IMG/VR virus record: IMGVR_UViG_3300023049_000054
Coordinates: 1-29,808 of that record
Length of the DNA: 29,808 nucleotides
Source of the DNA: a virus
Reading direction: 5' to 3' (one strand)
The position numbers and the translations under genes are program-made. Below are positions 8,731 to 25,165 of the stretch, one piece after another; the stretch's first letter is position 1; each line of letters begins with the position of its first letter. The notes beneath the pieces were generated by a model. That model saw only the letters and a list, made by a program, of their open reading frames with translations. It did not search any database and was not told where the DNA came from.

Positions 8731-10296
8731 ATGATAGTTTGTGCAGTTTGCAACGAATCTTTTAAGAACATGATAACCTGGCGTCACCTTAAACATCACA
8801 ATTTAACATCCTCTGAATATAAAGAAAAATACGGTCCTGTAGTAAGTGAAGAGTTTCGTAAACTAAAGAGCAGCCAGTCATCCGGAGCAAGCAACCCTAA
8901 TTTCGGAAAAACTCATTCGCTTAAAGCAAAGAAAAAGATATCTGATGCAAACAAAGGCAAAACACCTTCTAACTACAACTCTGCAATGACAGACCAACAA
9001 AAGGAAAAGCTGTCAACAAAGGCAAAGTTGAGAAATGAAGAATGGCATAAATCAGGAACACATCCTCTTGTGGGCAGTAAACATACTGCCCAAACCAAAG
9101 AAAAGATAGCCCAAGCTAGAAAATATCAGATTATTACCAACGAACAAGTACAGAAGGCGTTGGCTACAAAAAAAGCCAACGGCACGGATTTGGCTTTTTT
9201 CCGGGGAAAAGTTCATTCAGAAGAATCTAAACAACAAATAGCAAAAACTTCTAAGTTAACAGCAGCAAGAAAACAGAAAGAACACGTCTTGCGACTAGAA
9301 AATATTCTTGAAGATTACAATTATCAGTTGATTGAATACACGTCTACTTTTACAACTTTAAAATGTACATTGTGCGGAACAGTTTTTTCAAGGACGTCGC
9401 AGTATTTGTCTAAGTCAAAAATTCGTAACGACTTCTGCTCAGCATGTTATCCTAAAACTGTAAGTACCAGTAAACTAGAAAATCAGCTAGCTGATTTTGT
9501 ATCTGCATTTGTAGACATTGAACGTAATAATAGAACTATTATATCGCCCCTGGAGTTAGACGTAGTAATACCCGGCCATAACCTTGCTATAGAATTCAAC
9601 GGGCTGTACTGGCACTCAACAGAGTTCAAAGAAGCCAAGTATCATCTTAGGAAATCCGAATTATGTGCAGAACAAGGAATTAAGCTAATTCATGTTTTCG
9701 AAGACGAATGGGTTAACACCCCAGAAATTGTTAAGTCGAGATTATTGAATCAGCTAGGCAAGTGTAGTCGCAAGGTGTATGCCAGGAAAACAAAGATTAG
9801 AGAACTAACTGCAAGAGACGCAAATCAGTTCCTTAAGATAAACCACATTCAGTCTACGGGCAGGTCGAACGTGCGACTGGGGCTATACCACAACGACACC
9901 TTAGTTTCTGTAATGACTTTCTTAAAAGGTGATGTTAGCAAACGAGTCGTAGGGTGGGAGCTGAACAGATTCTGCACCACATTGGATACAACTGTAGTAG
10001 GCGGAGCTAACAAGCTATTTAACTACTTTGTTAATACATACTCTCCTGAGCAAGTAACTTCTTTTGCGGATCGCCGATGGAGCAACTCAAGCGCATTTTA
10101 TTCACTTTTAGGATTTACTCTAGATGGTGTTACTCCAGTAAACTATTGGTATTTTGCACCAGGAGAAACGCAACGTAAGCATCGTTATTCTTTCAAAACA
10201 AATAAATATAATACTGAGAAAGAACAAATAGACTTCTACAACTTGAAGACTATATACGACTGCGGTAGTTATCGTTTTTTATGGTGTGCAAAATAA
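8731..10296 (+). CDS. Free-standing homing endonuclease (Vsr-like/EDxHD type with NUMOD3 repeats)
   Basis: A 521-residue protein. It starts with a CAVC...H zinc finger (C4, C7, H19-H23). Three NUMOD3-type DNA-binding units follow at about 55-77 (NPNFGKTHS...), 111-131 and 156-175, then a second zinc ribbon at C212/C215 and C236/C239. The nuclease core at about 274-330 has LELDVVIPGHNLAIEFNGLY, then WHS, and LIHVFEDEW. This is the Vsr-like fold of the EDxHD family (I-Bth0305I type). The C-terminal 170 residues (from ARKTKIREL) are a domain often attached to these enzymes. It sits between sheath and tube genes, typical of intergenic homing. It is preceded by a terminator, a lone TATAAT at 8700, and the ribosome site AAAGGA. 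Confidence 0.85.
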   Translation: MIVCAVCNESFKNMITWRHLKHHNLTSSEYKEKYGPVVSEEFRKLKSSQSSGASNPNFGKTHSLKAKKKISDANKGKTPSNYNSAMTDQQKEKLSTKAKLRNEEWHKSGTHPLVGSKHTAQTKEKIAQARKYQIITNEQVQKALATKKANGTDLAFFRGKVHSEESKQQIAKTSKLTAARKQKEHVLRLENILEDYNYQLIEYTSTFTTLKCTLCGTVFSRTSQYLSKSKIRNDFCSACYPKTVSTSKLENQLADFVSAFVDIERNNRTIISPLELDVVIPGHNLAIEFNGLYWHSTEFKEAKYHLRKSELCAEQGIKLIHVFEDEWVNTPEIVKSRLLNQLGKCSRKVYARKTKIRELTARDANQFLKINHIQSTGRSNVRLGLYHNDTLVSVMTFLKGDVSKRVVGWELNRFCTTLDTTVVGGANKLFNYFVNTYSPEQVTSFADRRWSNSSAFYSLLGFTLDGVTPVNYWYFAPGETQRKHRYSFKTNKYNTEKEQIDFYNLKTIYDCGSYRFLWCAK

Positions 10297-10337: not shown

Positions 10338-10973
10338 ATGGCAATTTCATCACTATCGAAAATCACAGTACCACTAGCTAGTAACCAATCAGCTACTAGT
10401 CAAGGACTGTTAATGCCTAAGTTGCAGTATCGTTTTAGAGTAACACTTGAGAATTTCGGTGTAAGCTCAGGGACAACTGAACTTACCAAGCAAGTAGTGG
10501 ACGTGACCCGTCCGAGTGTTACGTTTGAAGAAATCACTCTTGACGTTTACAACTCAAAAGCTTATCTTGCAGGCAAGCATTCATGGGAACCACTAACACT
10601 CAACTTGCGTGACGATGTTACTGGTGCTGTACAAAAGCAAGTCGGCGAGCAGTTACAAAAGCAATTTGACTTCTTTGAACAGTCAGGAGCAGCTAGCGGT
10701 ATTGACTACAAGTTCTTAACACGGATTGAAATTCTAGATGGCGCCAACGGCGCATTCGAACCGACTATATTAGAAACTTGGGAATGTTATGGTTGCTTTG
10801 TTCAAAATGCAAATTATAACTCACTTAATTATGCAACAAACGAACCAGTAACTGTTACATTGTCAATTAGGTTTGACAACGCAGTACAAACTCCGCAAGG
10901 CACAGGTGTTGGTACAAACGTAGGTCGTACTATAAACACTTTAAGTACTGGTGCAGGCGGCGCATCAAACTAA
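10338..10973 (+). CDS. 19: Tail tube protein (T4 gp19-like)
   Basis: A 211-residue protein with the tail-tube layout. A strand LQYRFRVTLENFG (about 29-41) is followed by VTRPSVTFEEITLDVYNSKAY (about 55-75), matching the tube-fold sequence in which residues near the inner ring are followed by a loop and the basic motif. HSWEPLTLNLRDDV (80-93) corresponds to the T4 FDDWTVTVMND segment, and EPVTVTLSIRFDNA (168-181) to the final strand ETFEVTLALDY. Hexamers stack to form the DNA channel inside the sheath. It is longer than T4 gp19 (163), with a Gly/Thr-rich tail. It is followed by a strong terminator. In T4 gp18 and gp19 are adjacent; here a homing endonuclease separates them. Confidence 0.9.
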   Translation: MAISSLSKITVPLASNQSATSQGLLMPKLQYRFRVTLENFGVSSGTTELTKQVVDVTRPSVTFEEITLDVYNSKAYLAGKHSWEPLTLNLRDDVTGAVQKQVGEQLQKQFDFFEQSGAASGIDYKFLTRIEILDGANGAFEPTILETWECYGCFVQNANYNSLNYATNEPVTVTLSIRFDNAVQTPQGTGVGTNVGRTINTLSTGAGGASN

Positions 10974-13130: not shown

Positions 13131-13649
13131 ATGACACGCAAACTCGAAGAACTTTTAGATTTAGAAAGTTCAAAGGATATAATTAAGGATGCTGAAGAGC
13201 AAGAAAAAGAACAGCACAAGATTGCGGCTAGCAACCAAAAAGAAACTCTCCGAGATATTGCCGAGTTTGATAAAATTGCAGCAGCACTTCCACACGTTAA
13301 AGGTCTAGGTGATTTAGGTGATAGCGAGCTAGGAGAAGTTGCATCTAAATCAATGATTGCCTACGAAGACCTTATGGATCTTGGTATGAACGTCGAGGCT
13401 AGGTACGCCGCTAGAATCTTCGAAGTTGCTAGTTCTATGTTAAAGACAAATCTTGATGCAAAAACAGCCAAACTAGAAAAGAAGCTTAAGATGGTTGAAT
13501 TACAGCTTAAAAAAGAAAAGATAGAAAACGATAAAAACTCTAAAAAAGGTGGCGATGACGAATTTGTTAACAGCGAAGGGTATGTTGTATCGGATCGTAA
13601 TAGTTTGTTAGAACGACTAAAGAATATTGACAAGTCTAAAGATAAATAA
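13131..13649 (+). CDS. 16: Terminase small subunit (T4 gp16-like)
   Basis: A 172-residue acidic-then-basic protein, close to T4 gp16 (164). The central stretch SMIAYEDLMDLGMNVEARYA and the following RIFEVASSMLKTNLDAKTAK correspond to the oligomerisation coiled coil of marine T4-like gp16. After that comes a Lys-rich helix (about 100-135). In T4, gp16 forms rings, recognises concatemeric DNA and stimulates the gp17 ATPase. Its place just before the gp17 region supports the call. The ribosome site CGGAGG is strong, with a 69-base leader holding a small inverted repeat. Confidence 0.8.
   Translation: MTRKLEELLDLESSKDIIKDAEEQEKEQHKIAASNQKETLRDIAEFDKIAAALPHVKGLGDLGDSELGEVASKSMIAYEDLMDLGMNVEARYAARIFEVASSMLKTNLDAKTAKLEKKLKMVELQLKKEKIENDKNSKKGGDDEFVNSEGYVVSDRNSLLERLKNIDKSKDK
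13641..13648 (+). promoter_or_regulatory. Late promoter motif GATAAATA at the gp16 stop
   Basis: It forms the last three codons (Asp-Lys-stop) of gp16 and predicts a start near 13654 for the gene at 13671. Confidence 0.5.
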
Positions 13650-13670
13650 GATTATAACTAGGATATTGCG

Positions 13671-14240
13671 ATGAGATCTTTTACAGAAATTTTAAACGAA
13701 TCAAAAAAGAGTTACCCCTTTAAGATAGGCGTAGCAGGTGAGCTTCCTGAAGGCTTTGCTGACACTTTGGAAACTGCACTAAAGAAGTTTGGTGTTTCTT
13801 CACTTACTAGCGGAAAAACAACCCCAATTCAAGAACGGCCACTTGACTTTCCTCAGCACCAAAACACTCAAGTAACATATTTTGACACCGAAGTAACTTA
13901 CCCAACTACACCAGATGTATTAAGAAGTTACATAGGATCTATATGTTCAGTAACGGAGTCTTGTATTGTAGTGCGCAGAACTGACGAACCGCTAGAACGA
14001 TATCAAGATAATATGCCAAGTGACAACGAAACGGTAACCTACGAAACCTTACTTACTAAAGAAGATATGGGCGGTACTAGTGCACAACAGGACGTTGGCA
14101 GCAACAGAGTAATGGAGTTGCTTAAAGAACTCGAGAAAGATCGCAAAGAACGAGAACACGACCCTGCTGCGGCAGCACCCGTAGGAGAATCTGAAGACAT
14201 TTCAGACAAGCAAAATACAACGAGTCCAATAGGGAGTTAA
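13671..14240 (+). CDS. Conserved phage protein, packaging-head region
   Basis: A 189-residue protein of unknown function. It starts MRSFTEILNESKK, a peptide type (M-x-x-F-x-E-x-L-x-E) seen at the start of several head-associated proteins in T4-like phages. A compact domain follows (15-125, with PLDFPQHQNTQVTYFDTEV and YPTTPDVLRSYIGS). The C-terminus is charged and probably disordered, with a helix MELLKELEKDRKE around 147-159. I recall similar proteins next to terminase genes in marine T4-like phages. It is in the late unit between gp16 and gp17; the next gene starts 2 bases after its stop. Ribosome site CTAGGAT is weak. Confidence 0.65.
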   Translation: MRSFTEILNESKKSYPFKIGVAGELPEGFADTLETALKKFGVSSLTSGKTTPIQERPLDFPQHQNTQVTYFDTEVTYPTTPDVLRSYIGSICSVTESCIVVRRTDEPLERYQDNMPSDNETVTYETLLTKEDMGGTSAQQDVGSNRVMELLKELEKDRKEREHDPAAAAPVGESEDISDKQNTTSPIGS

Positions 14241-14242
14241 TA

Positions 14243-15448
14243 ATGGACAGCAGCACACAAAAACTAAAAGACATGATTCAGCGTATGACAGAGCTGGATA
14301 CTCCAGAAGAAAAAAAACAACAGTTAGACGAAATGGCTAGCATGAATATTTCTATGTCAGGCGAGACAGCAGACGACGTTGCAAGTCTTATGAAGATTAT
14401 GCAAAACGCTGGCATGAATGATGCAGCACCGATGCCTCAAGAAACAATGCCGGCACGTCAAGATATGGAACGGTTGTCTAGTATTGTCAGCGACCCTGCG
14501 CCAACGGCATTTGGTGGCGATACAGGGGCTCAAACGACTGTTAAAGGACTGCCACCGGGACAACACGAAGGTGCTAAGCAAGTTTCCGAAGAGTGGTCCA
14601 CAGAGAACGCCAAAGAGCTCGAATCATTGCATAACATGGTTCGGAAAACAATGAAAGGCGGAGCCGACGCTGTTAGAGCCAAGCGCGGGTTTGAAGATCA
14701 CGTTAATAAGACCTTTACAGGGGTTGACAGCTCACGCCTTCTTATGAAGCTGAAAAAAATGGACGACCGCGGCCAGGTAAAAATTCTGCACGACTTGGTA
14801 CGTGACAGCCAACGCCAGAATACTAACCCAGCCCCTTTGACTTACGAAAATCTAGAAGAGTGGTCCGCTCAAGATGCCGATATATTACGAAGGCTTCACG
14901 GACTAATACAAAGGTCAGCAGCTGGTAACAGCAGAGACGGCGCAGAATTCGAAGATTACATTGATAATAATTTTCCTAATGTTAACTCAGAAGAGTTAAG
15001 AGCAAAACTGGAAAAAATGGACGACAACCAGCAATTTGAAACTCTGCACGATATGTTAAGATTCGAGTATCAAAATGATGCAGAAGACGATTACACAGAT
15101 AGGTCAATGCGCAGTGGCGAGATGGGTCTAGAAGGGTACGATAACGAGCCTGATGAAGATTATCAAGACACTAATTACATGACTAAAGATCTGTCTGGCG
15201 GACTCAACAGACAAAAGAAGTCTTACAAAGATGCAGAAGACGGTGATAATCCGATGGCTGTTAAAGAAGGCGAGTCGCAAAAACGTTATGAGTCTATTAA
15301 AGATAGTTTGTATGCACAGCTAACAGAAAAGAAGAAAGCTGACAAAGACTACGACAAAGATGGCAAGATCGAAACGCCTAAGGCTGAGTACCAAGGTTCG
15401 AAGATTCGTGCTGCTAAGAAAAAAGGCAACATGAAGAAAGACGAGTAA
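14243..15448 (+). CDS. Acidic phage protein with a duplicated helical module
   Basis: A 401-residue, highly charged, Met-rich protein. An N-terminal block (MNISMSGETADDVASLMKIM, about 34-53) matches a motif common in marine myophage proteins. The middle holds two copies of one module: residues 116-190 and 205-276 share EEWS, LH(N/G), a FED(H/Y) helix, then KMDD and LHD(M/L). The tail (DKDYDKDGKIETPKAEY, about 363-379, then basic residues) resembles a calcium-loop-like segment repeated in many marine phage proteins. Function is unknown. Position in the head-packaging unit and composition suggest an internal head or scaffold-associated role, which is only inference. Confidence 0.65.
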   Translation: MDSSTQKLKDMIQRMTELDTPEEKKQQLDEMASMNISMSGETADDVASLMKIMQNAGMNDAAPMPQETMPARQDMERLSSIVSDPAPTAFGGDTGAQTTVKGLPPGQHEGAKQVSEEWSTENAKELESLHNMVRKTMKGGADAVRAKRGFEDHVNKTFTGVDSSRLLMKLKKMDDRGQVKILHDLVRDSQRQNTNPAPLTYENLEEWSAQDADILRRLHGLIQRSAAGNSRDGAEFEDYIDNNFPNVNSEELRAKLEKMDDNQQFETLHDMLRFEYQNDAEDDYTDRSMRSGEMGLEGYDNEPDEDYQDTNYMTKDLSGGLNRQKKSYKDAEDGDNPMAVKEGESQKRYESIKDSLYAQLTEKKKADKDYDKDGKIETPKAEYQGSKIRAAKKKGNMKKDE

Positions 15449-15455
15449 ATTACAT

Positions 15456-16274
15456 ATGATAAAGTCGTTAGACGGAGTAGTTACTAAGAATGCTGATCAA
15501 CAGGAAACCTACACTGAAACTCAAATAAAAAAGTTTCTTAAATGCGCAGATCCTGTTGATGGCTTTCTGTATTTCATCGAGCAATTTGTAAAGTATGTAA
15601 ACCCAGCTACTGGACCAGCTACTGGGGTACAGAACCTTAGACTTTACGATTTTCAAAAAGATCTACTAAAGAATATACACAACGAAAAAATTAGCGTAAA
15701 CATGCTACCCCGTCAGATGGGCAAGACGTTGTGCGCAGCGGCATACATTGCTTGGCGTTTGTTATTTTTAGAACACGAGAACATTGTCATTGCCAGTCAT
15801 CGGCTAATGGCTTCAGAACAAATACTCGAGACTGTTAGGCTCATTATAGAAAGATGCCCTAGCATGTTGAATCCTGGATTCAGTGTAAGCAACAAACGAT
15901 CACTTATACTTACTAACGGATCAAAGCTGCTAGCAAAAACTCTAGAGCCAGACAATCTTAGAGGTATGTCAATTAGTTTCTTGTTCGTTGACGAAGCAGG
16001 AGTTATGTCAGAGCACAAGATGCATGAATTCTTATCGTCAGCTTATCCTTCGATAGTTGGATCAAGAGGTAAGATTGCATTTACTTCTACAACAGGCGAA
16101 AAAGATTCCGGCTTTAACCTTCTATGGCAAAACGCACAAAATAAAAACTCTGGCTTTGCTAAGTTTAAAGCAGAATGGTTTGACCACCCTGAAAGAGACG
16201 AACAATGGAAAGATACTATTGTCAATCAAGTGGGCGAAGAAGTATTCAGAAAGGAGTACGAGTGCGAAATCTAA
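15456..16274 (+). CDS. Stand-alone terminase ATPase-domain paralogue (truncated gp17-like)
   Basis: A 272-residue protein that aligns with the extein sequence of the neighbouring gp17 from its first residues (SLDGV(V/L)TK, QQETYT) to the end of the ATPase domain. Walker A is PRQMGKT (85-91), Walker B is FLFVDE (175-180), and the coupling motif is TSTTG (210-214). All key ATPase residues are present, with no intein. It ends KEYECEI, two residues after the Cys that matches the third intein site in gp17 (REYG|CEF), so the whole nuclease domain is absent. Either it is a remnant of duplication or a kept accessory ATPase; intact motifs and frame favour the second. The ribosome site before ATG 15456 is weak. 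Confidence 0.85.
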   Translation: MIKSLDGVVTKNADQQETYTETQIKKFLKCADPVDGFLYFIEQFVKYVNPATGPATGVQNLRLYDFQKDLLKNIHNEKISVNMLPRQMGKTLCAAAYIAWRLLFLEHENIVIASHRLMASEQILETVRLIIERCPSMLNPGFSVSNKRSLILTNGSKLLAKTLEPDNLRGMSISFLFVDEAGVMSEHKMHEFLSSAYPSIVGSRGKIAFTSTTGEKDSGFNLLWQNAQNKNSGFAKFKAEWFDHPERDEQWKDTIVNQVGEEVFRKEYECEI

Positions 16275-16289
16275 GCATTCATTAATAAT

Positions 16290-17912
16290 ATGTCCAAGTC
16301 ATTAGACGGAGTACTTACAAAGAAAGCCAATCAACAAGAAACCTACACAGAGAAACAAATAGAACAACTTGTTAAATGTATGGACCCTGATAACGGCTAT
16401 TTGTACTTTGCTAAGAACTTTGCTTACATTCAGCACCCTGTAAGAGGCAAGCTGTTATTCGAACCATACGAATATCAAGAACGCCTAATGGCAAGTTATC
16501 ACAACTTCCGGTTTAACGTAAACATGCTGCCTAGGCAAACAGGCAAAGCCCTAGCGCTCGACACACCAATACCAACAAATTCCGGGTGGACTACAATGGG
16601 CGATATTAAAGTAGGTGATAAAATACTCGGACCTAACGGGAAGGAAGCCTCTGTTACATTTGCCACTCCGGTAATGTACAATCATACTTGTTATCAGGTC
16701 GAATTTGATAACGGAGAGAAGATTACAGCAGATGCAGAACATCTGTGGAACATTACATTAAGATCCTGGAATACTGGAGTAAAAACCTGGACCACGCAAC
16801 AGATTAAAGATTACATTGAATCAAAAAACACCTGTGTGTACGTAGAAGCAGCAAGCCCGATACAATTAGACGAAATAGAACTGCCTATAGATCCTTACGT
16901 GTTGGGTTTTTTGTTAGGTGACGGTGAGAGTGCCGCAGCACGTTATACCCAGTGTGTTGCTGATAATAAGGAAATTGTACCAGAGATATTAAGTAGAGGT
17001 GTTGACATCTCAAGATCTTATTCTAACGGGACTAGTGTTCAAAGTGAAAATAGGACTATTTACGGGTTACGCAGTAAACTAAACGAAAATGATTTGTTAA
17101 GAAATAAACATGTACCCGCGAAATATCTAAGAGCTAGTACTAATCAACGTTTAGAACTTTTGCAAGGTCTTATGGACTCAGCCGGCTCGATAGATAAAAG
17201 GTCCGGGCGATGTGAATTTTATCAAAAAAACTACAGACTAATAGAACAAGTACAAGACCTATTGTCATCATTAGGTATAAAAAATAGATGCGACCATAAG
17301 GTAATAAAAGGACAAACGTATTATACTATTGGATTTGCTACAACGAAATATAAAGTATTCAAGTTAACAAGGAAGTCTCAGTATCAAGATAACTGTAAAA
17401 GTCATCAAAAAAATACTCGACATTACATAAAGCGTATTTCGGCCACTGACTCAGTTCCAGTAAGGTGTATTCAAGTTGACACTACTGATCATTTGTTCCT
17501 CTGTGGAAAATCAATGATTCCAACTCATAACACCACCTGTGCTGCCGTATACCTTGCATGGTTTGCTATGTTCCATCCTGATCAAACTATTCTAATTGCA
17601 GCTCACAAGTACACAGGCGCCCAAGAAATTATGCAGCGAATTCGCTACATTTACGAATTGTGTCCTGACCATATACGTGCTGGTGTTGTCAATTACAACA
17701 AAGGTAGTATAGAATTCGAAAACGGTTCGCGTGTTGTAAGCTCAACTACTACAGGCAACACAGGCCGCGGCATGAGTATCTCGCTGCTATACTGCCTTGA
17801 CGGTGATACTACTAGAGTGCGAGTTCGTAATAAAAAAACACTAGAAGAGGAAGACGTGACATTAAAAGAACTTTATGTCAGGCTTCTCGATCCAAGAATT
17901 GTTCTCGCATGA
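16290..17912 (+). CDS. 17: Terminase large subunit gp17, part 1, with one full intein and an N-terminal split-intein half
   Basis: A 540-residue ORF. Residues 1-86 are extein ending at PRQTGK, the first half of Walker A. Residues 87-414 are a full intein. Residues 415-501 are extein again (TTCAAVYLAWFAMF... to RGMSISLLY). From Cys502 (CLDGDTT) to 540 is the N-half of a split intein, ending KELYVRLL plus seven residues. Splicing of the full intein rejoins GK with TT; the intein-free paralogue upstream reads GKTLCAAA at this place, which fixes the borders. Walker B is cut just before Asp-Glu, so this part alone cannot be an active ATPase. The stop overlaps the next ORF (ATGA). The ribosome site before ATG 16290 is weak. 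Confidence 0.92.
   Translation: MSKSLDGVLTKKANQQETYTEKQIEQLVKCMDPDNGYLYFAKNFAYIQHPVRGKLLFEPYEYQERLMASYHNFRFNVNMLPRQTGKALALDTPIPTNSGWTTMGDIKVGDKILGPNGKEASVTFATPVMYNHTCYQVEFDNGEKITADAEHLWNITLRSWNTGVKTWTTQQIKDYIESKNTCVYVEAASPIQLDEIELPIDPYVLGFLLGDGESAAARYTQCVADNKEIVPEILSRGVDISRSYSNGTSVQSENRTIYGLRSKLNENDLLRNKHVPAKYLRASTNQRLELLQGLMDSAGSIDKRSGRCEFYQKNYRLIEQVQDLLSSLGIKNRCDHKVIKGQTYYTIGFATTKYKVFKLTRKSQYQDNCKSHQKNTRHYIKRISATDSVPVRCIQVDTTDHLFLCGKSMIPTHNTTCAAVYLAWFAMFHPDQTILIAAHKYTGAQEIMQRIRYIYELCPDHIRAGVVNYNKGSIEFENGSRVVSSTTTGNTGRGMSISLLYCLDGDTTRVRVRNKKTLEEEDVTLKELYVRLLDPRIVLA
16548..17531 (+). mobile_element. Intein 1: class 3-type intein with LAGLIDADG endonuclease domain
   Basis: 328 residues inserted between Lys and Thr of Walker A. 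The first residue is Ala (ALALDTPIPT), so the usual Cys/Ser nucleophile is missing. The class 3 signature is present: Trp two residues after the block B His (AEHLW, W153 of the ORF), Cys at the block F position that is normally Asp (VRCIQVD, C393), and Thr before the final His-Asn (PTHN, T412). The next extein residue is Thr. The endonuclease domain has motifs VLGFLLGDG (204-212) and LLQGLMDSAG (290-299). In the second, the expected catalytic Asp is Ala298, so cleavage activity is doubtful while splicing residues look intact. Confidence 0.85.
17793..17912 (+). other. Split intein 2, N-terminal half (IntN2)
   Basis: Codes for 39 residues from CLDGDTT to the stop of part 1. It holds block A of a standard Cys1 intein and ends with an ELYVRLL helix like the LYKRLA end of the 25-residue N-half of the AceL-TerL intein (from memory). 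Block B and everything after it are on the next gene, 261 bases downstream. Confidence 0.85.
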
Positions 17913-18196
17913 CAAGTTTGCCTTTGATGCATGGATATAAAAATAGTGTTAGTCCGTTATTGATAGGAAGTGTAAGTAACCTACAGATGTTGCCGTGGCA
18001 AGACAACGTATCAAAGCACAGCAAGTCAGGAATATTGTTAGAAGAATTATTAATTCGTGCAAATTACACCAGCGATCAGTCGATCAAAGAATTTACTACT
18101 TTCTTAGAAATGATCAATAACGACATAAGAAGTGGCACTGTAGTCAGCGGCGCTGCACTAATAGAGAGGTTCAATGAATCAAAGTTTCGCACCTAA
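17909..18196 (+). CDS. Hypothetical small ORF inside the fractured terminase gene
   Basis: A 95-residue ORF in the gap between the two halves of split intein 2. I do not recognise it. It overlaps the stop of part 1 as ATGA and runs 23 bases into part 2. There are no zinc-finger, GIY-YIG, HNH, LAGLIDADG or Vsr-like residues, so it is not a visible endonuclease, although split-intein gaps often hold one. The last third (FTTFLEMINNDIRSG, then GAALIERFNESKF) looks like ordinary helical coding sequence. No ribosome site precedes its ATG, so translation would depend on coupling. It may be a real small gene, the remnant of a lost endonuclease, or simply a spacer that stayed open. Confidence 0.4.
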   Translation: MTSLPLMHGYKNSVSPLLIGSVSNLQMLPWQDNVSKHSKSGILLEELLIRANYTSDQSIKEFTTFLEMINNDIRSGTVVSGAALIERFNESKFRT

Positions 18197-18509
18197 CACA
18201 GAATACGAAATTCTTACACCTAACGGCTGGGAAGACTTCGAAGGAATTTTCTTAAACGAAAACGCCAATAAGGATTCTCGCAAGATTACATTTGACGATA
18301 ATAGCTTTGTTATAGCAACACTCGACCATCGATTCTATATTAATAATTCCGAAGTTAAAGTAAAAGACCTTGTGTTAGGTAATAAACTAGACTCTGAAGA
18401 CAATAGTAAGATAATAGTGTCACTAGAGGATGTAGAATTAGAGGACACTTACGAGATATTTAACGCAGAAAATCACGTAATACTTGCAAATAAGATTAAT
18501 TCGCATCAA
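18174..18509 (+). other. Split intein 2, C-terminal half (IntC2)
   Basis: 112 residues carrying blocks N2 to G: EILTPNGWEDFEGI (12-25), block B TLDH (49-52), block F DTYEIFNAENHVI, and the end KINSHQ before Cys+1. The last residue is Gln instead of Asn, a rare but known variant. No endonuclease domain. Confidence 0.85.
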
Positions 18510-18911
18510 TGCGACGAGTTCGCATTTGTACAACCTGGGATAGCAGACGAGTTTTGGACGTCGATATCACCTACGCTAGCAACAGGTGGTAGAGCAATTA
18601 TAACATCTACTCCAAACTCGGACGAAGACACGTTTGCGACAATCTGGAAAGACGCCGAGAAAAAGTTTGACGAACACGGCAATGAAACTGAATTAGGAAC
18701 GAATGGCTTCCATTCGTTTACAGTAGCCTGGGACGAGCACCCAGACAGAAACGACGAATGGAAGGTTGCTGAAATAGGTCGTATTGGTGAAGAACGCTTC
18801 CGTCGTGAGTATGGTTGTGTGACACGCAATACTATGATAACTTTGCAAGACGAAAACGGAAATGTATTTGACTTAGAAATAGGCAACTTGTACAATACCA
18901 TAGATGAATAA
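18174..18911 (+). CDS. 17: Terminase large subunit gp17, part 2, flanked by split-intein halves
   Basis: A 245-residue ORF with three sections. Residues 1-112 are the C-half of split intein 2, ending INSHQ. Residues 113-214 are extein: CDEFAFV completes Walker B (LLY|CDE), and AIITSTPNS (141-149) is the coupling motif, followed by WDEHPDRNDEWK and GEERFRREYG. Residues 215-245 (CVTRNTM... to NTIDE) are the N-half of split intein 3. The extein aligns with residues about 178-268 of the paralogue upstream. The ATG is five bases after GAGAGG. This IntC-extein-IntN order means the middle piece must be joined at both ends by trans-splicing. Confidence 0.9.
   Translation: MNQSFAPNTEYEILTPNGWEDFEGIFLNENANKDSRKITFDDNSFVIATLDHRFYINNSEVKVKDLVLGNKLDSEDNSKIIVSLEDVELEDTYEIFNAENHVILANKINSHQCDEFAFVQPGIADEFWTSISPTLATGGRAIITSTPNSDEDTFATIWKDAEKKFDEHGNETELGTNGFHSFTVAWDEHPDRNDEWKVAEIGRIGEERFRREYGCVTRNTMITLQDENGNVFDLEIGNLYNTIDE
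18816..18911 (+). other. Split intein 3, N-terminal half (IntN3)
   Basis: 31 residues from CVTRNTMITL to the stop of part 2, block A only. It resembles IntN2 in the ending (IGNLYNTI beside KELYVRLL) and is close in size to the 25-residue AceL-TerL N-half. Confidence 0.85.
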
Positions 18912-18987
18912 TAGCCCAAGAACAACTTAACGGAGAATACTGTGAGAGCTGCAATTTATATAGAGGTGGTAACAGAGTATTAAAAAA

Positions 18988-19329
18988 ATGACAAAGACAT
19001 TCAAAGAAAATTCGAAGAATTACAAAGTACTAACTCCTGATGGATTTCAGTCCTTTGCAGGTGTAGCATTGATGGGCGTAAAACCTACACTGCGCCTGGA
19101 CTTTGAGGGAGGAGCGTATGTAGAATGTACATACGATCATAAGTTCTACGTAACACTAACTGAACATAAAGAAGCAAGTCAATTAAATGTTGGCGACGCT
19201 GTGGTTACTTCAGAAGGCGACGTTAAGCTGTTGTCTAAGTCAGACACTGGAATGTCCGAACCGGTATATGATTTAATCGAAGTAGAAAACGGCCACCGGT
19301 ATTTTACTAACAAGGTACTAAGCTCTAAC
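18988..19329 (+). other. Split intein 3, C-terminal half (IntC3)
   Basis: 114 residues: YKVLTPDGFQSFAGV (12-26), block B TYDH (48-51), block F VYDLIEVENGHRYFTN (93-108), end VLSSN before Cys+1. The penultimate residue is Ser where most inteins have His. Confidence 0.85.
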
Positions 19330-20079
19330 TGCGAATTCTTAGTATTTGACGAAACGTTAATTAATTCCATCAAACTATCAACTATGGAGGGGATGACTCC
19401 GACCCTTAACATGGGGCAAACCCGGTGGTATAAGAAGCCTGAGGCAGGTTATACCTATGCTGTTGCACTTGACCCTAGTATGGGCACTGGTGGCGACAAT
19501 GCTGCTATACAGGTTATAGAATTACCTAGTTACAAACAAGTAGCAGAATGGCAGCACAATCAAACGTCAATTCCTGGACAAATTCGCGTACTTAAAGATA
19601 TCAACAATTATATACAAGAGACTATTAAGCAACCAAACTCTATTTACTGGAGTGTAGAAAATAACGGTATTGGCGAAGCTGCATTATTAGTAATACAAGA
19701 TTTTGGTGAAGAGAATATTCCCGGCCTGTTTATATCAGAACCGATTCGCAAAGGCCACGTTAGAAAATTCCGTAAAGGGTTTAACACTACCCACAGTGCT
19801 AAGATTACAGCATGCAGTAGACTTAAAACAATGGTAGAAAACGACAAAATGAAAATTTACTCCAAACCGTTAATATCAGAACTCAAAGGGTTCATTGCAA
19901 CTGGTTCTAGTTACCAAGCAAAATCCGGAGTCTCAGACGATCTAATATCTGCAATTTTGTTAACTATACGAATGATGGCGATACTCAAAGATTGGGACCC
20001 TAAGATTTACAATACATTTACGCAGGCTGATGATGATGACTATGATCCGCCGATGCCAATCTTTATGACACGGAACTGA
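18988..20079 (+). CDS. 17: Terminase large subunit gp17, part 3, nuclease domain behind a split-intein half
   Basis: A 363-residue ORF. Residues 1-114 are the C-half of split intein 3. From Cys115 (CEFLVFDETLIN) comes the C-terminal extein of 249 residues with the RNase H-like nuclease of gp17: ALDPSMGTGGD (Asp162), VENNGIGEA (Glu224) and GVSDDLISA (Asp317/318), matching the T4 triad Asp401/Glu458/Asp542. It cuts concatemers to make the ends of packaged DNA. Fully spliced gp17 would have 86+87+102+249 = 524 residues. A 76-base gap separates it from part 2, and no good ribosome site is near its ATG, which follows an A run. The stop codon TGA begins the next late promoter motif. Confidence 0.92.
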   Translation: MTKTFKENSKNYKVLTPDGFQSFAGVALMGVKPTLRLDFEGGAYVECTYDHKFYVTLTEHKEASQLNVGDAVVTSEGDVKLLSKSDTGMSEPVYDLIEVENGHRYFTNKVLSSNCEFLVFDETLINSIKLSTMEGMTPTLNMGQTRWYKKPEAGYTYAVALDPSMGTGGDNAAIQVIELPSYKQVAEWQHNQTSIPGQIRVLKDINNYIQETIKQPNSIYWSVENNGIGEAALLVIQDFGEENIPGLFISEPIRKGHVRKFRKGFNTTHSAKITACSRLKTMVENDKMKIYSKPLISELKGFIATGSSYQAKSGVSDDLISAILLTIRMMAILKDWDPKIYNTFTQADDDDYDPPMPIFMTRN

Positions 20080-20085
20080 TAAATA
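20078..20085 (+). promoter_or_regulatory. Late promoter motif GATAAATA at the gp17 stop
   Basis: Overlaps the TGA of gp17 part 3 and ends 5 bases before the ATG at 20090. The predicted start falls at the start codon, so the message would have no leader. Confidence 0.45.
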
Positions 20086-20089
20086 CGTT

Positions 20090-22105
20090 ATGGACCTAAA
20101 ACATATTGCAGAAGAATTATTTGCTAAAATACGAGGACGTTTCCCGGCAGTCACTTTAGGTGACGAATCTGGAAATGTCACAACCGAACCGCTTGACGCC
20201 CGCTATTTTGAATTTTTGTTCAGCGAGTCTGACGACAGCTCAGGCAAGATAAGCATATCGCTTGACGAAGAGTCTGGTGTTACGGTTATGTACAACAACA
20301 ACGTAGTAAATGACGAAATTTCTAAGAAGAAATGGTACGAGTTTTTACGAGAACTAAGAAGCTTTTCGAAGAAGCGTATGTTAAACTTTGACGTTAGGAA
20401 TATTACAAAATCAAACTTAGAAAAAAGAGACTACAAATACCTTGCAAGGAACTCCGGAGACAGTAACATGAATGAATCGAAGTTATACGGTACTTCAAAA
20501 TTAAGCTACCAAAACATAGACAGTGCCAGACTAGTGATCAAGCATACTGAAAACATAGACTCAGCAATCCCGTCAGGCCGCACGCGAAACATTGGGACTA
20601 TTTACATAGAAAGCGGAGCGGGCGAACGGTTTAAGTACCCTTTTAAACATCTAGCAGGCGCAAGAGCAATGGCAAGACACGTGGCAGAGGGCGGCACAAC
20701 CTATGACGACTTTGGCATACACATTGTTGACTTGTCCGAAGAGCTTTCGAAGCTACGCAAGTTTAAAAATTACATGGGCCGGTCGAAGGTAATGGCTGAG
20801 AGTTTATCTGGGTACATGGGCATTGTTCATGAGCGCATTAGTACGGTTAAGAAGAGAATCGAACACCTGCAAAAACCAAACTTCTACAAAGAAGCGTTTG
20901 ACGGATTTGAGAAACCAGTATTTGAAGAAATTCCAGAAGACGTAAAAGAAAACTGGATAGACCAGCTAACTATTAGACAATTTAACGAAGAACTTAAAGA
21001 CGTATTCCCATATATCTACAAGCTAATCGGTGAAGGCACCCGTGCTAAAGAACTAGGTCCAGAAGACTTCATGAATGAAATGGAAGCCAACGAAACTGCT
21101 GAGAAGATTGCTTGCCTAGGATGTGATGCTGTGTCAACAAAAGCAGCTTGGCAGAAGAATAACGATACTTGCCCTAGGTGCAAGAAGTCAAGCAAAGGTG
21201 TTGCTGAAGATTCAGACGACATAGAAGAAGGCAAAGGCGGATTCGAAAGAACGTTTAACAAGGTAATGGGATTTGGCGACACGAAGCCTAAAGATATACA
21301 GAGAAGAGTTCGTGCTATGACCGACGATCAGTTGAAGACGTTGGCCAAAGACGTTGACGAAAAGCCGGGCGATGGCAGTGAGCGCAGTCTTCAAATGAAG
21401 CTGATCAATCAAGAGCTAAAAAGACGCTACGGGATTAAGCCTAGTAAGAACTCTACGGAAGAAGCTCAGATTGAGACATACTTCAACCAGTTGATGGGTG
21501 AATGGAACGAAGACGATGCGCCTACAAAGGAAGGCTTTGGCGACAAGGTAGCCAAGAAGTTTAATAAAGCTATGACCTGGGGCGATAGTTCGCCAGAAGA
21601 AATGAAGAAAAGAATTAGAAACCTCAGCGACAAAGAGCTTAAGGTACTAGCAAAGAGAGCAGGCGAGCCAGAAGGTGGCCCTGGAAGTGCCCGCAGTCTT
21701 CAAATGAAGCTGATCAATCAAGAGCTAAAAAGACGCTACGGGATTAAGCCTAGTAAGAACTCTATGGAAGAAGCATGCTGTGATGGATGTGCATCCGGTG
21801 GCGAGTGCGAGAAAGAAGCAGGAATTGGCGCCGAAGGTCAAAAAGATAAGCAATCACCGCTTAGTGAATTCATCCTTAGTTTTTATGACAGAGCAAACGG
21901 CTCCTTTCCAAAAGGCGAAACCGCAGTGCTTACTATGGTTGAAAAAGATTACGGCGAGCAGTACATTAATCCAGCAAAGCAATTTATTGAGAGAGTTAAC
22001 AACACGTATGAGCAGCACCAAGCAAGCAGCGGATTGAACGTAATTGAAGAACCACAGCAAGACAACACAGAGTTTGATGCTGTGAGAAGATTAGCTGGTC
22101 TTTAA
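20090..22105 (+). CDS. Large conserved phage protein with zinc ribbon and tandem repeat
   Basis: A 671-residue protein. The first 330 residues (from MDLKHIAEELFAKIRGRFP; KWYEFLRELRSFSKKRMLNF near 85; FKYPFKHLAGARAMARHVAEG near 182) match, from memory, a conserved protein of unknown function in marine T4-like phages. Then comes a zinc ribbon (C342, C345 and a later CPRC), and two copies of a helical module (about 381-458 and 480-561) that share FNK(V/A)M and the identical end SLQMKLINQELKRRYGIKPS. A Cys-rich loop (CCDGCASGGEC) and a C-terminal helical domain follow. The second half looks like added modules on the ancestral protein. No ribosome site is visible before the ATG. Function unknown; it lies between packaging and recombination genes. 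Confidence 0.7.
   Translation: MDLKHIAEELFAKIRGRFPAVTLGDESGNVTTEPLDARYFEFLFSESDDSSGKISISLDEESGVTVMYNNNVVNDEISKKKWYEFLRELRSFSKKRMLNFDVRNITKSNLEKRDYKYLARNSGDSNMNESKLYGTSKLSYQNIDSARLVIKHTENIDSAIPSGRTRNIGTIYIESGAGERFKYPFKHLAGARAMARHVAEGGTTYDDFGIHIVDLSEELSKLRKFKNYMGRSKVMAESLSGYMGIVHERISTVKKRIEHLQKPNFYKEAFDGFEKPVFEEIPEDVKENWIDQLTIRQFNEELKDVFPYIYKLIGEGTRAKELGPEDFMNEMEANETAEKIACLGCDAVSTKAAWQKNNDTCPRCKKSSKGVAEDSDDIEEGKGGFERTFNKVMGFGDTKPKDIQRRVRAMTDDQLKTLAKDVDEKPGDGSERSLQMKLINQELKRRYGIKPSKNSTEEAQIETYFNQLMGEWNEDDAPTKEGFGDKVAKKFNKAMTWGDSSPEEMKKRIRNLSDKELKVLAKRAGEPEGGPGSARSLQMKLINQELKRRYGIKPSKNSMEEACCDGCASGGECEKEAGIGAEGQKDKQSPLSEFILSFYDRANGSFPKGETAVLTMVEKDYGEQYINPAKQFIERVNNTYEQHQASSGLNVIEEPQQDNTEFDAVRRLAGL
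21383..21764 (+). repeat. 73-base exact direct repeat, 309 bases apart
   Basis: Bases 21383-21455 and 21692-21764 are identical, followed after one mismatch by nine more identical bases. The period of 309 is 103 codons, so both lie in the same frame of the 671-residue protein. The 5' parts of the two modules have diverged, so the 3' part has probably been made uniform by recombination. Confidence 0.9.
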
Positions 22106-22115
22106 GATCAGCTAA
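22091..22115 (+). terminator. Hairpin at the end of the 671-residue protein gene
   Basis: A 10-base stem with one G-U pair (22091-22100 with 22106-22115) whose loop TTTAA contains the stop codon. The T-rich stretch begins only 8 bases later, so termination would be weak. Confidence 0.4.
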
Positions 22116-22142
22116 GTTATTCATTTTTATACAAAAAAATGG

Positions 22143-22188
22143 TTGACAGGATAAATAACATTGTGTAGTATATAACTTGTGCTACACA
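22143..22188 (+). promoter_or_regulatory. Overlapping sigma-70-type and late promoter elements, and leader hairpin, before gp32
   Basis: TTGACA at 22143-22148 is a perfect -35 box; 17 bases on is TAGTAT (22166-22171), a weak -10, with TATATA starting 3 bases later. A late motif GATAAATA sits in the spacer at 22150-22157. A 7-base hairpin (22162-22168 with 22182-22188) overlaps the start region. The following 50 bases to the AGGAGG-type ribosome site are A-rich and unstructured, as in the T4 gene 32 leader. Confidence 0.5.
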
Positions 22189-22240
22189 CTTAAGGCACTA
22201 AAAACATAGGCAAAATAACAAAATTAGGAGGCATTTTACT

Positions 22241-23254
22241 ATGGCTACACTTCAAGAAATTCGAGCAAAACTGAAAGAACAAGAGGCAAACAAAGGCGGC
22301 AGCACCCAACAACAAGGCGATTCGGCCATTTATCCATTCTGGAACATCAAAGAAGGCGAGAGTTGTACTCTACGTTTCCTTCCTGATGGCAATACTGAAA
22401 ACACTTTTTTCTGGGCTGAGAGGCTTATGATCAAGCTGCCATTTGCTGGCATTAAGGGTGATACGGATTCACGTCCTGTAACAGTAGCAGTTCCATGTAT
22501 GGAAATGTACGGAGAAACTTGTCCGGTACTTGCAGAAGTACGTGGTTGGTTCAAAGATCCAAGTCTTGAAGACATGGGTCGCAAGTACTGGAAGAAGCGT
22601 TCTTATATCTTCCAGGGTTTTGTTAAAGACAACCCGATGGGCGACGACACCACACCAGAGAATCCTATTCGTAGGTTTATTATCGGTCCACAGATCTTCC
22701 AGATCATTAAACAGGCTCTTATGGATCCTGACATGGAAGAACTCCCAACAGATTACACAACAGGCGTAGACTTCCGCCTTAACAAGACCAGTAAAGGACA
22801 GTATGCTGACTATTCAACTTCGAATTGGGCGCGTAGAGATCGTCCACTTAACGAAGAAGAAATGAAAGCTATTAACGATCATGGCTTGTTTAACATGAGC
22901 GACTTCCTTCCTAAGAAGCCTGACGAAACAGCGATTCAGGTTATAAAGGAAATGTTCGAAGCAAGTGTTGACGGCGAAGCATATGACGCAGATCGTTGGA
23001 GTCAATACTTCCGTCCAGCAGGCGTTAGTGCAAAGACAGGTGATCCCAACAAGACATCTGCTCCGGCAGCAAAAACTGAACCTAAGCCATCGGTAACACC
23101 AAAGGTAGATGAGAAGGTTGATGTTAGTGAAGAGGAGAAAGATCTTCCTTGGAACAAAGAAGACGCAGCTGAAGACAAGTCAGAAGAGAAGTCAGAAGGC
23201 AGCAGCGCCCAAGATATTCTGACAATGATTCGCTCGCGTCAGAACCAGCAATAA
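22241..23254 (+). CDS. 32: Single-stranded DNA-binding protein (T4 gp32-like)
   Basis: A 337-residue protein. The start of the core has TLRFLPDGNTENTFFWAE (43-60), matching the T4 AVIRFLPSKND region. A Cys pair (C86 and C94 in AVPCMEMYGETCPVL) sits where T4 has its zinc finger, but only two Cys are seen, so zinc binding is uncertain. YWKKRSYIFQGFVKDNPMG (117-135) is the conserved OB-fold strand. The last 70 residues are acidic and flexible, the usual arm for contacting replication and recombination partners, ending in QDILTMIRSRQNQQ. Gp32 coats single-stranded DNA in replication and recombination together with UvsX and UvsY, which follow. An AGGAGG-like ribosome site (TTAGGAGGC) precedes the ATG. 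Confidence 0.9.
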   Translation: MATLQEIRAKLKEQEANKGGSTQQQGDSAIYPFWNIKEGESCTLRFLPDGNTENTFFWAERLMIKLPFAGIKGDTDSRPVTVAVPCMEMYGETCPVLAEVRGWFKDPSLEDMGRKYWKKRSYIFQGFVKDNPMGDDTTPENPIRRFIIGPQIFQIIKQALMDPDMEELPTDYTTGVDFRLNKTSKGQYADYSTSNWARRDRPLNEEEMKAINDHGLFNMSDFLPKKPDETAIQVIKEMFEASVDGEAYDADRWSQYFRPAGVSAKTGDPNKTSAPAAKTEPKPSVTPKVDEKVDVSEEEKDLPWNKEDAAEDKSEEKSEGSSAQDILTMIRSRQNQQ

Positions 23255-23263
23255 ACCCATCTA

Positions 23264-23284
23264 TGGGGGAGGTCACCTCCCCCA
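23264..23284 (+). terminator. Strong GC hairpin between gp32 and uvsX
   Basis: A perfect 9-base stem (TGGGGGAGG with CCTCCCCCA) around a TCA loop, followed by GTATCTTTTA rather than a clean T run. It may act as partial terminator or protect the abundant gp32 message; uvsX has no obvious promoter of its own. Confidence 0.6.
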
Positions 23285-23312
23285 GTATCTTTTAATCAAT
23301 ATAGGAGTCACT

Positions 23313-24404
23313 ATGGCTAAATCTTTCGACCCATCAAAATTTCGGAAAGATCTAACAAAATCAATCACTGGCATGAGTGCTGGCTTTAACGACCCAACAG
23401 ACTGGGTTTCGACTGGCAACTATGCGCTGAACTATCTTATCAGCGGAGACTTTCAACGAGGTGTTCCACTAGGTAAGGTAACTGTATTCGCTGGCGAATC
23501 AGGTGCAGGCAAGAGCTATATCTGTTCAGGTAACATTATCAAAGATGCGCAGGATCAAGGCATTTACGTAGTGTTAATCGACTCAGAGAACGCACTTGAC
23601 GAAGCATGGTTGCAAGCACTGGGTGTTAAGACATCCGAAGAGCACATGCTTAAATTGAGTATGAGTATGATCGACGACGTGGCCAAGACCATGTACACAT
23701 TCATGCAAGACTACAAAGACATGTCTGAAGAAGATCGTCCCAAGGTACTATTTGTAATTGACAGTCTTGGTATGATGATGACACCAACTGACGTAGACCA
23801 GTTCCAGAAAGGTGATATGAAAGGTGACATGGGTCGTAAGCCCAAGGCACTGGCATCACTTGTACGTAACACTGTAAACATGATTGGTGCATATAACGTA
23901 GGCCTTGTGTGTACAAACCACACATACGCAAGCCAGGATATGTTCGACCCAGATGACAAGATCTCAGGTGGCCAGGGCTTTATCTACGCAAGCTCAATTG
24001 TAGTTGCAATGCGTAAACTTAAACTCAAAGAGGATGATGATGGCAATAAGATTGCTGATGTACGCGGTATTAGAGCAGCGTGTAAGGTAATGAAAACACG
24101 CTACGCAAAACCATTCGAAAGTGTGCAAGTAAAAATTCCCTACGACGGCGGAATGAGCTTGTACTCAGGACTTGTTGAGTTGTTTGAAAAGAAAGGGCTA
24201 CTTGAAAAGAACGGAAATCGCCTTCTATATATTACTCATTCAGGCGAGGAGATAAAAAAATATAGAAAAGAGTGGCAAAGAAACGACGACGGATGTCTAG
24301 ACAGAATTATCGAAGAGTTTCATCTTCTTCCTGATAATACGGAAGACTCGTTTGACGATGCTGAAGAAACAAGTACAAGTACTTTAGACTCAGAAAACGA
24401 GTAA
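23313..24404 (+). CDS. uvsX: RecA-like recombinase (T4 UvsX-like)
   Basis: A 363-residue protein, near T4 UvsX (about 390). Walker A GESGAGKSY is at 61-69 and Walker B VLFVID at 145-150. VVLIDSENALD (87-97) and LVCTNHTYAS match the RecA/UvsX core, the latter being the motif near the L2 loop. UvsX forms filaments on single-stranded DNA and drives strand invasion for recombination-dependent replication. The C-terminus is acidic. The ribosome site TAGGAG precedes the ATG by 6 bases. It is downstream of gp32 and followed, after a broken homing endonuclease, by UvsY. Confidence 0.93.
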   Translation: MAKSFDPSKFRKDLTKSITGMSAGFNDPTDWVSTGNYALNYLISGDFQRGVPLGKVTVFAGESGAGKSYICSGNIIKDAQDQGIYVVLIDSENALDEAWLQALGVKTSEEHMLKLSMSMIDDVAKTMYTFMQDYKDMSEEDRPKVLFVIDSLGMMMTPTDVDQFQKGDMKGDMGRKPKALASLVRNTVNMIGAYNVGLVCTNHTYASQDMFDPDDKISGGQGFIYASSIVVAMRKLKLKEDDDGNKIADVRGIRAACKVMKTRYAKPFESVQVKIPYDGGMSLYSGLVELFEKKGLLEKNGNRLLYITHSGEEIKKYRKEWQRNDDGCLDRIIEEFHLLPDNTEDSFDDAEETSTSTLDSENE

Positions 24405-24408
24405 GGAG

Positions 24409-24448
24409 ACATAGCAGTCTGCTAAATATGAATAGGAGGCTGCTATGT
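24409..24448 (+). promoter_or_regulatory. Late promoter nested in an inverted repeat covering the GIY-YIG start codon
   Basis: Arms 24409-24417 (ACATAGCAG) and 24440-24448 (CTGCTATGT) are exact complements with a 22-base loop. The right arm contains the ATG at 24445. The loop contains the late motif GCTAAATA (24421-24428) and the ribosome site AGGAGG. Message from uvsX carries both arms; message from the inner promoter (start near 24434) lacks the left arm. Confidence 0.65.
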
Positions 24449-25165
24449 ACTACATTTGTGCTTTAATCGACCCAAGATCGGACTTACCTTTTACATCGGC
24501 AAGGGACTAATCGTAAACTCTAGACACCTAGACCATTTTAAGGAAAACGAGTCTCGTACCTTAAATAAACACAAATTTTATAAAATAAGATTTTTACAGA
24601 ATCAAGGATACGTAGTTCCTGTAATAGTGCTGTTAGATAATATATTAGACGAACACGAAGCTTACAATAAAGAAACCGAGTTCGTAAAGTTTTACGGAAG
24701 AAAAACATCGACAAAAACGGAATACTATCTAATATATGCCTTGACAACAGACCCCCTAATCATAAAGGCAGAAAACAATCTTTAGAACACAAACAGAAGA
24801 GAATAGAAAGTTATAAGCGTACTGTTAAGACTCACGGCAAGAAGATGCCCGAGTATTATAAAAAAGAATTATCCGAAAGAATGAAAGGTCCAAAAAATCC
24901 GTTTTTTGGGAGAAAGCATACTAAAGAATTTAAGGCTGTTCATTCTAAAAGGATGAAAGGCAACAAAAACAACGGCAAGGTTTATAAATTCATTGATTCT
25001 GATAATAAAGAATACATCGTAGAAGGATCGTTTTATGAATTTTGTAAAGTGCACAATCTAGCAATTTCAACAATGGAAAAAAATCTATACAACGGAACAA
25101 TTAGTAAAGTAGGAGCCTGTAAAGGGTGGAAAGTTGTTAAGTTGTCTGAGAGTACTTTTCTATAA
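24445..25165 (+). pseudogene. GIY-YIG homing endonuclease, broken by two frameshifts
   Basis: The reading starts MYYICALIDPRSDLPF after a perfect AGGAGG, then must slip by -1 at a T4 run (24489-24492) to continue as FYIGKG, the second half of the GIY-YIG motif. It must slip again by -1 at an A5 run (24713-24717) to pass from KTSTK into GILSNICLDN. The third frame then runs to TAA at 25163-25165. Restored, the protein is 240 residues: a GIY-YIG nuclease, NUMOD3 units (NHKGRKQSLEHKQKR near 24749, NPFFGRKHTKEFK near 24896), and a NUMOD1-like end (KVYKFID... to GCKGWKV-type). Both breaks fit loss of one base from a homopolymer, so recent decay or sequencing error are both possible. More A/T-rich than its neighbours, as expected for an inserted element. 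Confidence 0.8.

Follow-up and report, generated by a model that had tools for sequence, protein, structure and literature searches.

Predicted cis- and trans-splicing inteins at three catalytic sites of a phage large terminase encoded in three pieces

In fractured genes, which Dassa et al. are said to have described in 2009, a split intein reportedly interrupts the gene for a conserved enzyme, and a free-standing endonuclease gene lies between the two parts. VidaL inteins, split inteins of phages with a short N-terminal half, take their name from a locus of the uvsX kind. Atypically split inteins of the large terminase (TerL), like fractured genes and class 3 inteins in general, are already known: the AceL-TerL, GOS-TerL, and Cat inteins combine an N-terminal half (IntN) of 25 to 37 amino acids (aa) with a C-terminal half (IntC) of about 104 aa (PMC11766414). 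Class 3 inteins lack Cys, Ser, or Thr at position 1 and are recognized by Trp B:12, Cys F:4, and Thr G:5, with Ser or Thr at position +1 (PMC5222942). The large terminase of the myovirus TaPaz, in turn, carries a contiguous cis intein as its single insertion (PMC8228797). Here we analyze a viral stretch of 29,808 nucleotides (nt), IMG/VR record IMGVR_UViG_3300023049_000054 (the window), in which a T4-type TerL is distributed over three open reading frames (ORFs). It is very probable that three mobile inteins, each independent of the others, have entered this enzyme at conserved catalytic sites and that it is spliced to a product of 524 aa.

The three ORFs (16290-17912, 18174-18911, and 18988-20079) together encode a complete gp17-like terminase in four extein pieces (EX1 to EX4) of 86, 87, 102, and 249 aa, which add up to the 524 aa. 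The interruptions fall within Walker A (GK/TT, the slash marking the insertion point), within Walker B (LLY/CDE), and at the joint between the ATPase and nuclease domains (REYG/CEF), hereinafter sites 1, 2, and 3. Pfam Terminase_6N and Terminase_6C and several PHROG terminase families match the extein pieces. The ATPase domain is marked by RQTGK/TT and LLY/CDE in extein sequence along with the Terminase_6N and PHROG matches, and the RNase H-like nuclease domain is marked by the Terminase_6C match and the ALDPSMG, SVENNG, and SDDL motifs. EX4 is approximately 50% identical to TerL of PA5oct-type jumbo phages and 43% identical to that of the RaK2-like jumbo phage GAP32. Relatives, designated below by L numbers, were drawn from IMG/VR protein scans (best 80 matches per scan) whose queries included intein peptides, so that the set is biased and counts taken from it are not frequencies. 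In more than 60 distinct relatives (e.g., L083 and L011), the counterparts of EX1 to EX4 are directly joined, with zero extra codons at all three points; the uninterrupted TerL of L083 is 86 to 94% identical to the window exteins, piece by piece. These natural empty sites establish the three junctions as true insertion sites. They bear out the initial annotation of the window, which had placed the insertions at the same three positions and whose extein boundaries (residues 1-86 and 415-501 of the first ORF, 113-214 of the second, and 115-363 of the third) proved exact. The intein ends that it had recognized at each junction likewise hold up, as the nucleophiles and block residues are present and conserved in all three inteins.

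On the basis of sequence, we assign the inteins at sites 2 and 3 to the atypically split class 1 inteins of the AceL/GOS/Cat-TerL kind. They share with these the TerL host, a split near the N terminus that leaves a very short IntN (39 and 31 aa at sites 2 and 3, with IntC of 112 and 114 aa, respectively), and Cys at position +1. Searches of the PDB with family profiles of either IntC support this placement, as their top match was CatC, a structure-solved intein engineered as a consensus of atypical split TerL inteins. When the contiguous site-2 intein of L097 served as a single-sequence PDB query, no intein match resulted, whereas the family profile gave one. An AlphaFold model of the second ORF (mean predicted local distance difference test [pLDDT] score of 61, higher in the intein part) adopts the HINT fold, and its top Foldseek match is the Cat intein, with the VidaL, RadA, and gp41-1 inteins close behind. 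The likeness to VidaL (PDB 6vgv) lies in its being a short-IntN class 1 phage split intein; its similarity to the window inteins is below that of CatC. Across the split-intein families, Cys1, the Thr and His of block B, a terminal Asn or Gln, and the +1 Cys are conserved, with C termini that are mostly His-Gln at site 2 and Ser-Asn or Lys-Asn at site 3. The described AceL, GOS, and Cat inteins occur singly, whereas the window has two different split inteins and a cis intein on one protein. The two window split inteins are only 23% (IntN) and 29% (IntC) identical to each other, and identity between sites averages about 0.20 to 0.27 over all pairs of split inteins. Such divergence is what their presumed orthogonality would require. 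The net charges of the IntN and IntC halves revealed no clear pairing code for it.

Site 1 is occupied by a contiguous intein that starts with Ala1, lacks an N-terminal nucleophile, and displays W67 (B:12), C307 (F:4), T326 (G:5), and a terminal H327-N328 pair followed by Thr at +1, i.e., the full class 3 signature. The Trp, Cys, and Thr are kept in all 15 distinct cis inteins found, that of the window included, and a PDB search placed the class 3 DnaB intein 6bs8 first. Modeled by itself with AlphaFold, the cis intein gave a structure of too low confidence for use (mean pLDDT of 37). In sequence, the cis intein resembles class 3 inteins such as the mycobacterial DnaB intein in all of the diagnostic positions and differs from them in residing in the Walker A motif of TerL. 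As a class 3 intein, it would splice by way of a branched intermediate at Cys F:4. In L010, L130, and L166, the exact position held elsewhere by the contiguous class 3 intein is held by a split class 1 intein, indicating that one site was colonized by two unrelated inteins.

The homing endonucleases of all three elements look dead or deleted. The second LAGLIDADG motif of the cis intein has the sequence LMDSAG, with Ala in place of the catalytic Asp; of the 14 further distinct cis inteins found, 12 retain this Asp. At site 2, ORF 17909-18196 is 53% identical to the C terminus of the intact endonucleases of L001 and L015, and a deletion of approximately 633 to 644 nt relative to L088 and L015, with its junction near 17926/17927, has removed the catalytic HxDH part (an HNH assignment made by inspection of the HxDH...N...N pattern, as the intact copies had no Pfam match). 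The site-3 remnant is about 951 nt shorter than its counterpart in L005 and keeps a GGAG/GTG start and 13 codons (18942-18983), with a stop 4 nt before the ATG of the third ORF. With such lesions, none of the three elements should home any more. Intact free-standing endonuclease genes lie between the intein halves in L001, L005, L010, L015, L167, and others. The TerL of the window, which has only deletion remnants there, would thus be a derivative of a fractured gene whose intact form persists in close relatives (L001, L015, and L005). It differs from the fractured-gene arrangement, seen whole in L001, L010, L015, and L167, by the deleted endonucleases and in that one gene is fractured twice (three times in L010 and L130). 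The stop of the first ORF overlaps the ATG of the 95-codon remnant, the remnant overlaps the start of the second ORF, and the site-3 mini-ORF leads into the third; conceivably, the remnants have been kept for translational coupling of the TerL pieces.

Comparisons across the relatives point to recurrent movement at these sites. In this query-biased set, 31 of the 97 distinct complete TerLs are interrupted, with occupancy varying at every site and requiring a minimum of 9, 15, and 12 changes on the extein tree at sites 1, 2, and 3, respectively. L015 and L017 have a 1361-nt site-2 element that is absent from L083, in exteins that are 99.2 to 100% identical in DNA; conversely, the elements of L015 and L107 are 97.9% identical, with adjacent extein DNA flanks of 73 to 80% identity. 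The split-intein tree groups by insertion site rather than by phage, with site 2 and site 1 each forming one clade. Inteins evidently move in and out of the same three TerL sites among these phages. Besides the window phage, triple occupancy is found in L167 (cis plus two split inteins, with endonucleases) and in L010 and L130, in which each of the three inteins is split and TerL extends over four genes. Endonuclease genes of MTES_1575/DUF559-like, HNH-like, and GIY-YIG families remain at sites 1 and 2 of L010 and sites 2 and 3 of L130. The claim of the initial annotation that the layout is unusual therefore needs qualifying, since the distant relative L167 has the same combination and two others have gone further. 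Site 2 of L173 pairs an IntN from one site-2 subfamily with an IntC from another, which suggests recombination between halves and hints at promiscuity within one site.

A further fate is seen in three relatives with contiguous versions of the site-2 or site-3 inteins. L097 is 98 to 99% identical in DNA to the split L106 but lacks 861 nt, and L123 is 98 to 100% identical to the split L114 but lacks 859 nt. In the tree, the contiguous inteins of L097, L123, and L111 are placed at tips within split clades. They appear to be split inteins that were re-fused after endonuclease deletion. Set against L105, L112, and the window, which stayed split, they suggest that deletion of the endonuclease can either leave the gene split or re-fuse it. 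The relatives thereby offer a snapshot of what may be the whole homing cycle at one gene, from the empty site through intein plus endonuclease to endonuclease loss, ending in a permanently split gene (window) or a re-fused intein (L097, L123, and L111). The cultured Serratia phage 92A1 (L245, 2142-5104) seems to have a TerL broken at site 3 or close to it, the two halves being separated by a GIY-YIG-like ORF; its annotation lists only terminase and hypothetical proteins. Separately, L010 has a fractured uvsX (13222-15892) whose split-intein halves flank an endonuclease-like gene, an arrangement resembling VidaL-UvsX.

Together, these observations favor one cis and two trans-splicing inteins, as the initial annotation had proposed, over other readings, with the split-intein halves, the catalytic residues, and the relatives with empty sites all in agreement. 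Site 1 would hold a contiguous class 3 intein and sites 2 and 3 split inteins whose halves were formerly separated by a free homing endonuclease gene. The three polypeptides would be EX1-[cis intein]-EX2-IntN1, IntC1-EX3-IntN2, and IntC2-EX4, and cis splicing at Walker A together with two trans-splicing reactions orthogonal to each other, one at Walker B and the other at the domain joint, would yield EX1-EX2-EX3-EX4. Because all three homing endonucleases are dead or deleted, the inteins look fixed and would be retained as the phage needs the spliced product for packaging. The exteins are under purifying selection, and the ratio of nonsynonymous to synonymous substitution rates (dN/dS) of the inteins is about 0.07 to 0.17 in pairs with unsaturated dS, except for two of three IntN2 pairs (only 31 codons), at 0.47 to 0.52. 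This would be an apparent natural case of an essential enzyme that two different split inteins acting in tandem assemble from three polypeptides (in two relatives, three split inteins and four polypeptides), a design that protein engineers have built on purpose (PMC12707363). In the literature searched, which did not include Dassa 2009 and Thiel 2014, we found no earlier description of two natural split inteins and a cis intein in one protein or of the four-gene version. The locus and its relatives might also serve as a source of natural, apparently orthogonal split inteins with very short IntN halves. We consider it improbable that the phage benefits from assembly in pieces, with the three or four polypeptides and their mutually orthogonal inteins imposing a built-in delay or control of dosage, so that the motor appears only at a late stage and in the proper quantity, and with the upstream ATPase-only paralog (see below) as a partner or modulator.

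Several points weigh against splicing as the explanation. In the site-3 intein, Ser takes the place of the penultimate His (LSSN), and Gln is the last residue of the site-2 intein; these residues are typical of their families, but either can lower splicing efficiency. The two split inteins could cross-react, and the middle piece, which bears both an IntC and an IntN, could be cyclized if these paired. Moreover, dS is saturated for most pairs, so that selection on the inteins is gauged from few pairs and dN/dS is indicative only. If, on the other hand, the pieces were never ligated, they might assemble noncovalently in the manner of endonuclease-split genes-in-pieces enzymes, with inert intein remnants. 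Noncovalent split phage enzymes are known (e.g., the split ribonucleotide reductase cited in PMC10448857), and the death of every homing endonuclease in the window would suit this. We regard it as very unlikely, given that complete intein halves with conserved nucleophiles and block B, F, and G residues persist at every site and that unspliced inserts of 30 to 330 aa, within Walker A and Walker B, should abolish ATPase activity.

It is also quite improbable that the three-part TerL is a decaying pseudogene and that another terminase packages the genome, possibly with the paralog. An intact ATPase-only copy does adjoin TerL, the site-1 endonuclease has lost an active-site residue, and the 29.8-kb record is probably a fragment, so that a second TerL could lie elsewhere in the genome. 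However, exteins and inteins alike have intact frames and evolve under purifying selection, no nuclease or ATPase motif is incomplete, the paralog lacks a nuclease domain, and close kin have an uninterrupted TerL at the same place. The contig being metagenomic, one continuous frame might have been broken by assembly or sequencing error, the alternative that the initial annotation had itself raised. This is contradicted by the independent contig L110, which agrees with window positions 16249-24908 over 8660 nt without gaps and with a single mismatch, indicating that the breaks are not local assembly or frameshift errors; relatives, too, share the breaks, with endonuclease genes in between, and the breaks coincide with intein split sites. 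Error is accordingly a negligible prospect. Excision at the RNA level is no more credible: introns occur in phage terminases (ICP1; PMC10448857), but the inserts are intein coding and in frame with the exteins that they follow or precede, and an Rfam scan of the window returned no intron match. The coordinates of the spliced terminase that we favor, and of related features, are given in Table 1.

Table 1. Features of the terminase locus in the window and of its counterparts in relatives
Feature	Coordinates	Strand	Evidence
ATPase-only, intein-free TerL paralog, 272 aa	15456..16274	+	Terminase_6N 1.8e-18
EX1, N-extein, aa 1-86, terminates in Walker A (...RQTGK)	16290..16547	+	
Contiguous class 3 intein (putative), 328 aa, with embedded LAGLIDADG endonuclease	16548..17531	+	PDB 6bs8 1.2e-29; LAGLIDADG_3 6.7e-10
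EX2, 87 aa, TTCAA...SISLLY	17532..17792	+	
IntN, site 2, 39 aa, begins CLDGDTT	17793..17909	+	About 30 relatives have a homologous half at this site
Site-2 HNH homing endonuclease remnant, 95 aa (first residues plus C-terminal ~88 aa)	17909..18196	+	phrog_5104 5.6e-8
IntC, site 2, 112 aa, ATLDH block B, NSHQ end before Cys+1	18174..18509	+	29-relative alignment; CatC 7.6e-9; HINT fold
EX3, 102 aa, CDEFAF...RREYG; Walker B acidic pair and coupling motif	18510..18815	+	
IntN, site 3, 31 aa, begins CVTRNTM	18816..18908	+	
Site-3 homing endonuclease gene remnant, 76 nt	18912..18987	+	Residual ENTVRAAIYIE matches endonuclease start in L005/L007
IntC, site 3, 114 aa, CTYDH block B, LSSN end before Cys+1	18988..19329	+	10-relative alignment; CatC 1.8e-13
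EX4, C-extein, 249 aa, nuclease domain, acidic motifs ALDPSMG/SVENNG/SDDL	19330..20076	+	Terminase_6C 1.2e-12
Four-gene TerL	L010:4107-9098; L130:373-5438		
Contiguous versions of site-2 or site-3 inteins	L097:719-1213; L123:5857-6333; L111:2037-2432		

The paralog gene lies 15 nt upstream of TerL and is a neighbor outside the spliced protein. Its Walker A (PRQMGKT) and Walker B (FLFVDEA) motifs are intact, and it ends in EYECEI, three residues past the equivalent of the site-3 junction; having no nuclease domain, it cannot replace TerL by itself. Similar copies are found upstream of TerL in L015, L083, L012, L019, L005, and L107, with two in tandem in L124. Their rate of evolution is far above that of TerL, and the approximately unbiased test does not reject a single origin (p-AU of 0.40). 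Setting aside a 12-nt indel, window positions 15261-16375 share about 99.6% identity with L017 and L083, whereas identity of the surrounding genomes is about 70 to 80%. A tract of approximately 1.1 kb so much more alike than its surroundings indicates that the paralog gene moved between phages recently.

Elsewhere in the window, a 521-aa free-standing homing endonuclease (8731-10296) is flanked by the tail sheath (5374-8643) and tail tube (10338-10973) genes. Downstream of TerL, two 93-nt direct repeats (21373-21465 and 21682-21774; 96% identical) within a structural-protein ORF (20090-22105) give rise to repeated protein modules.

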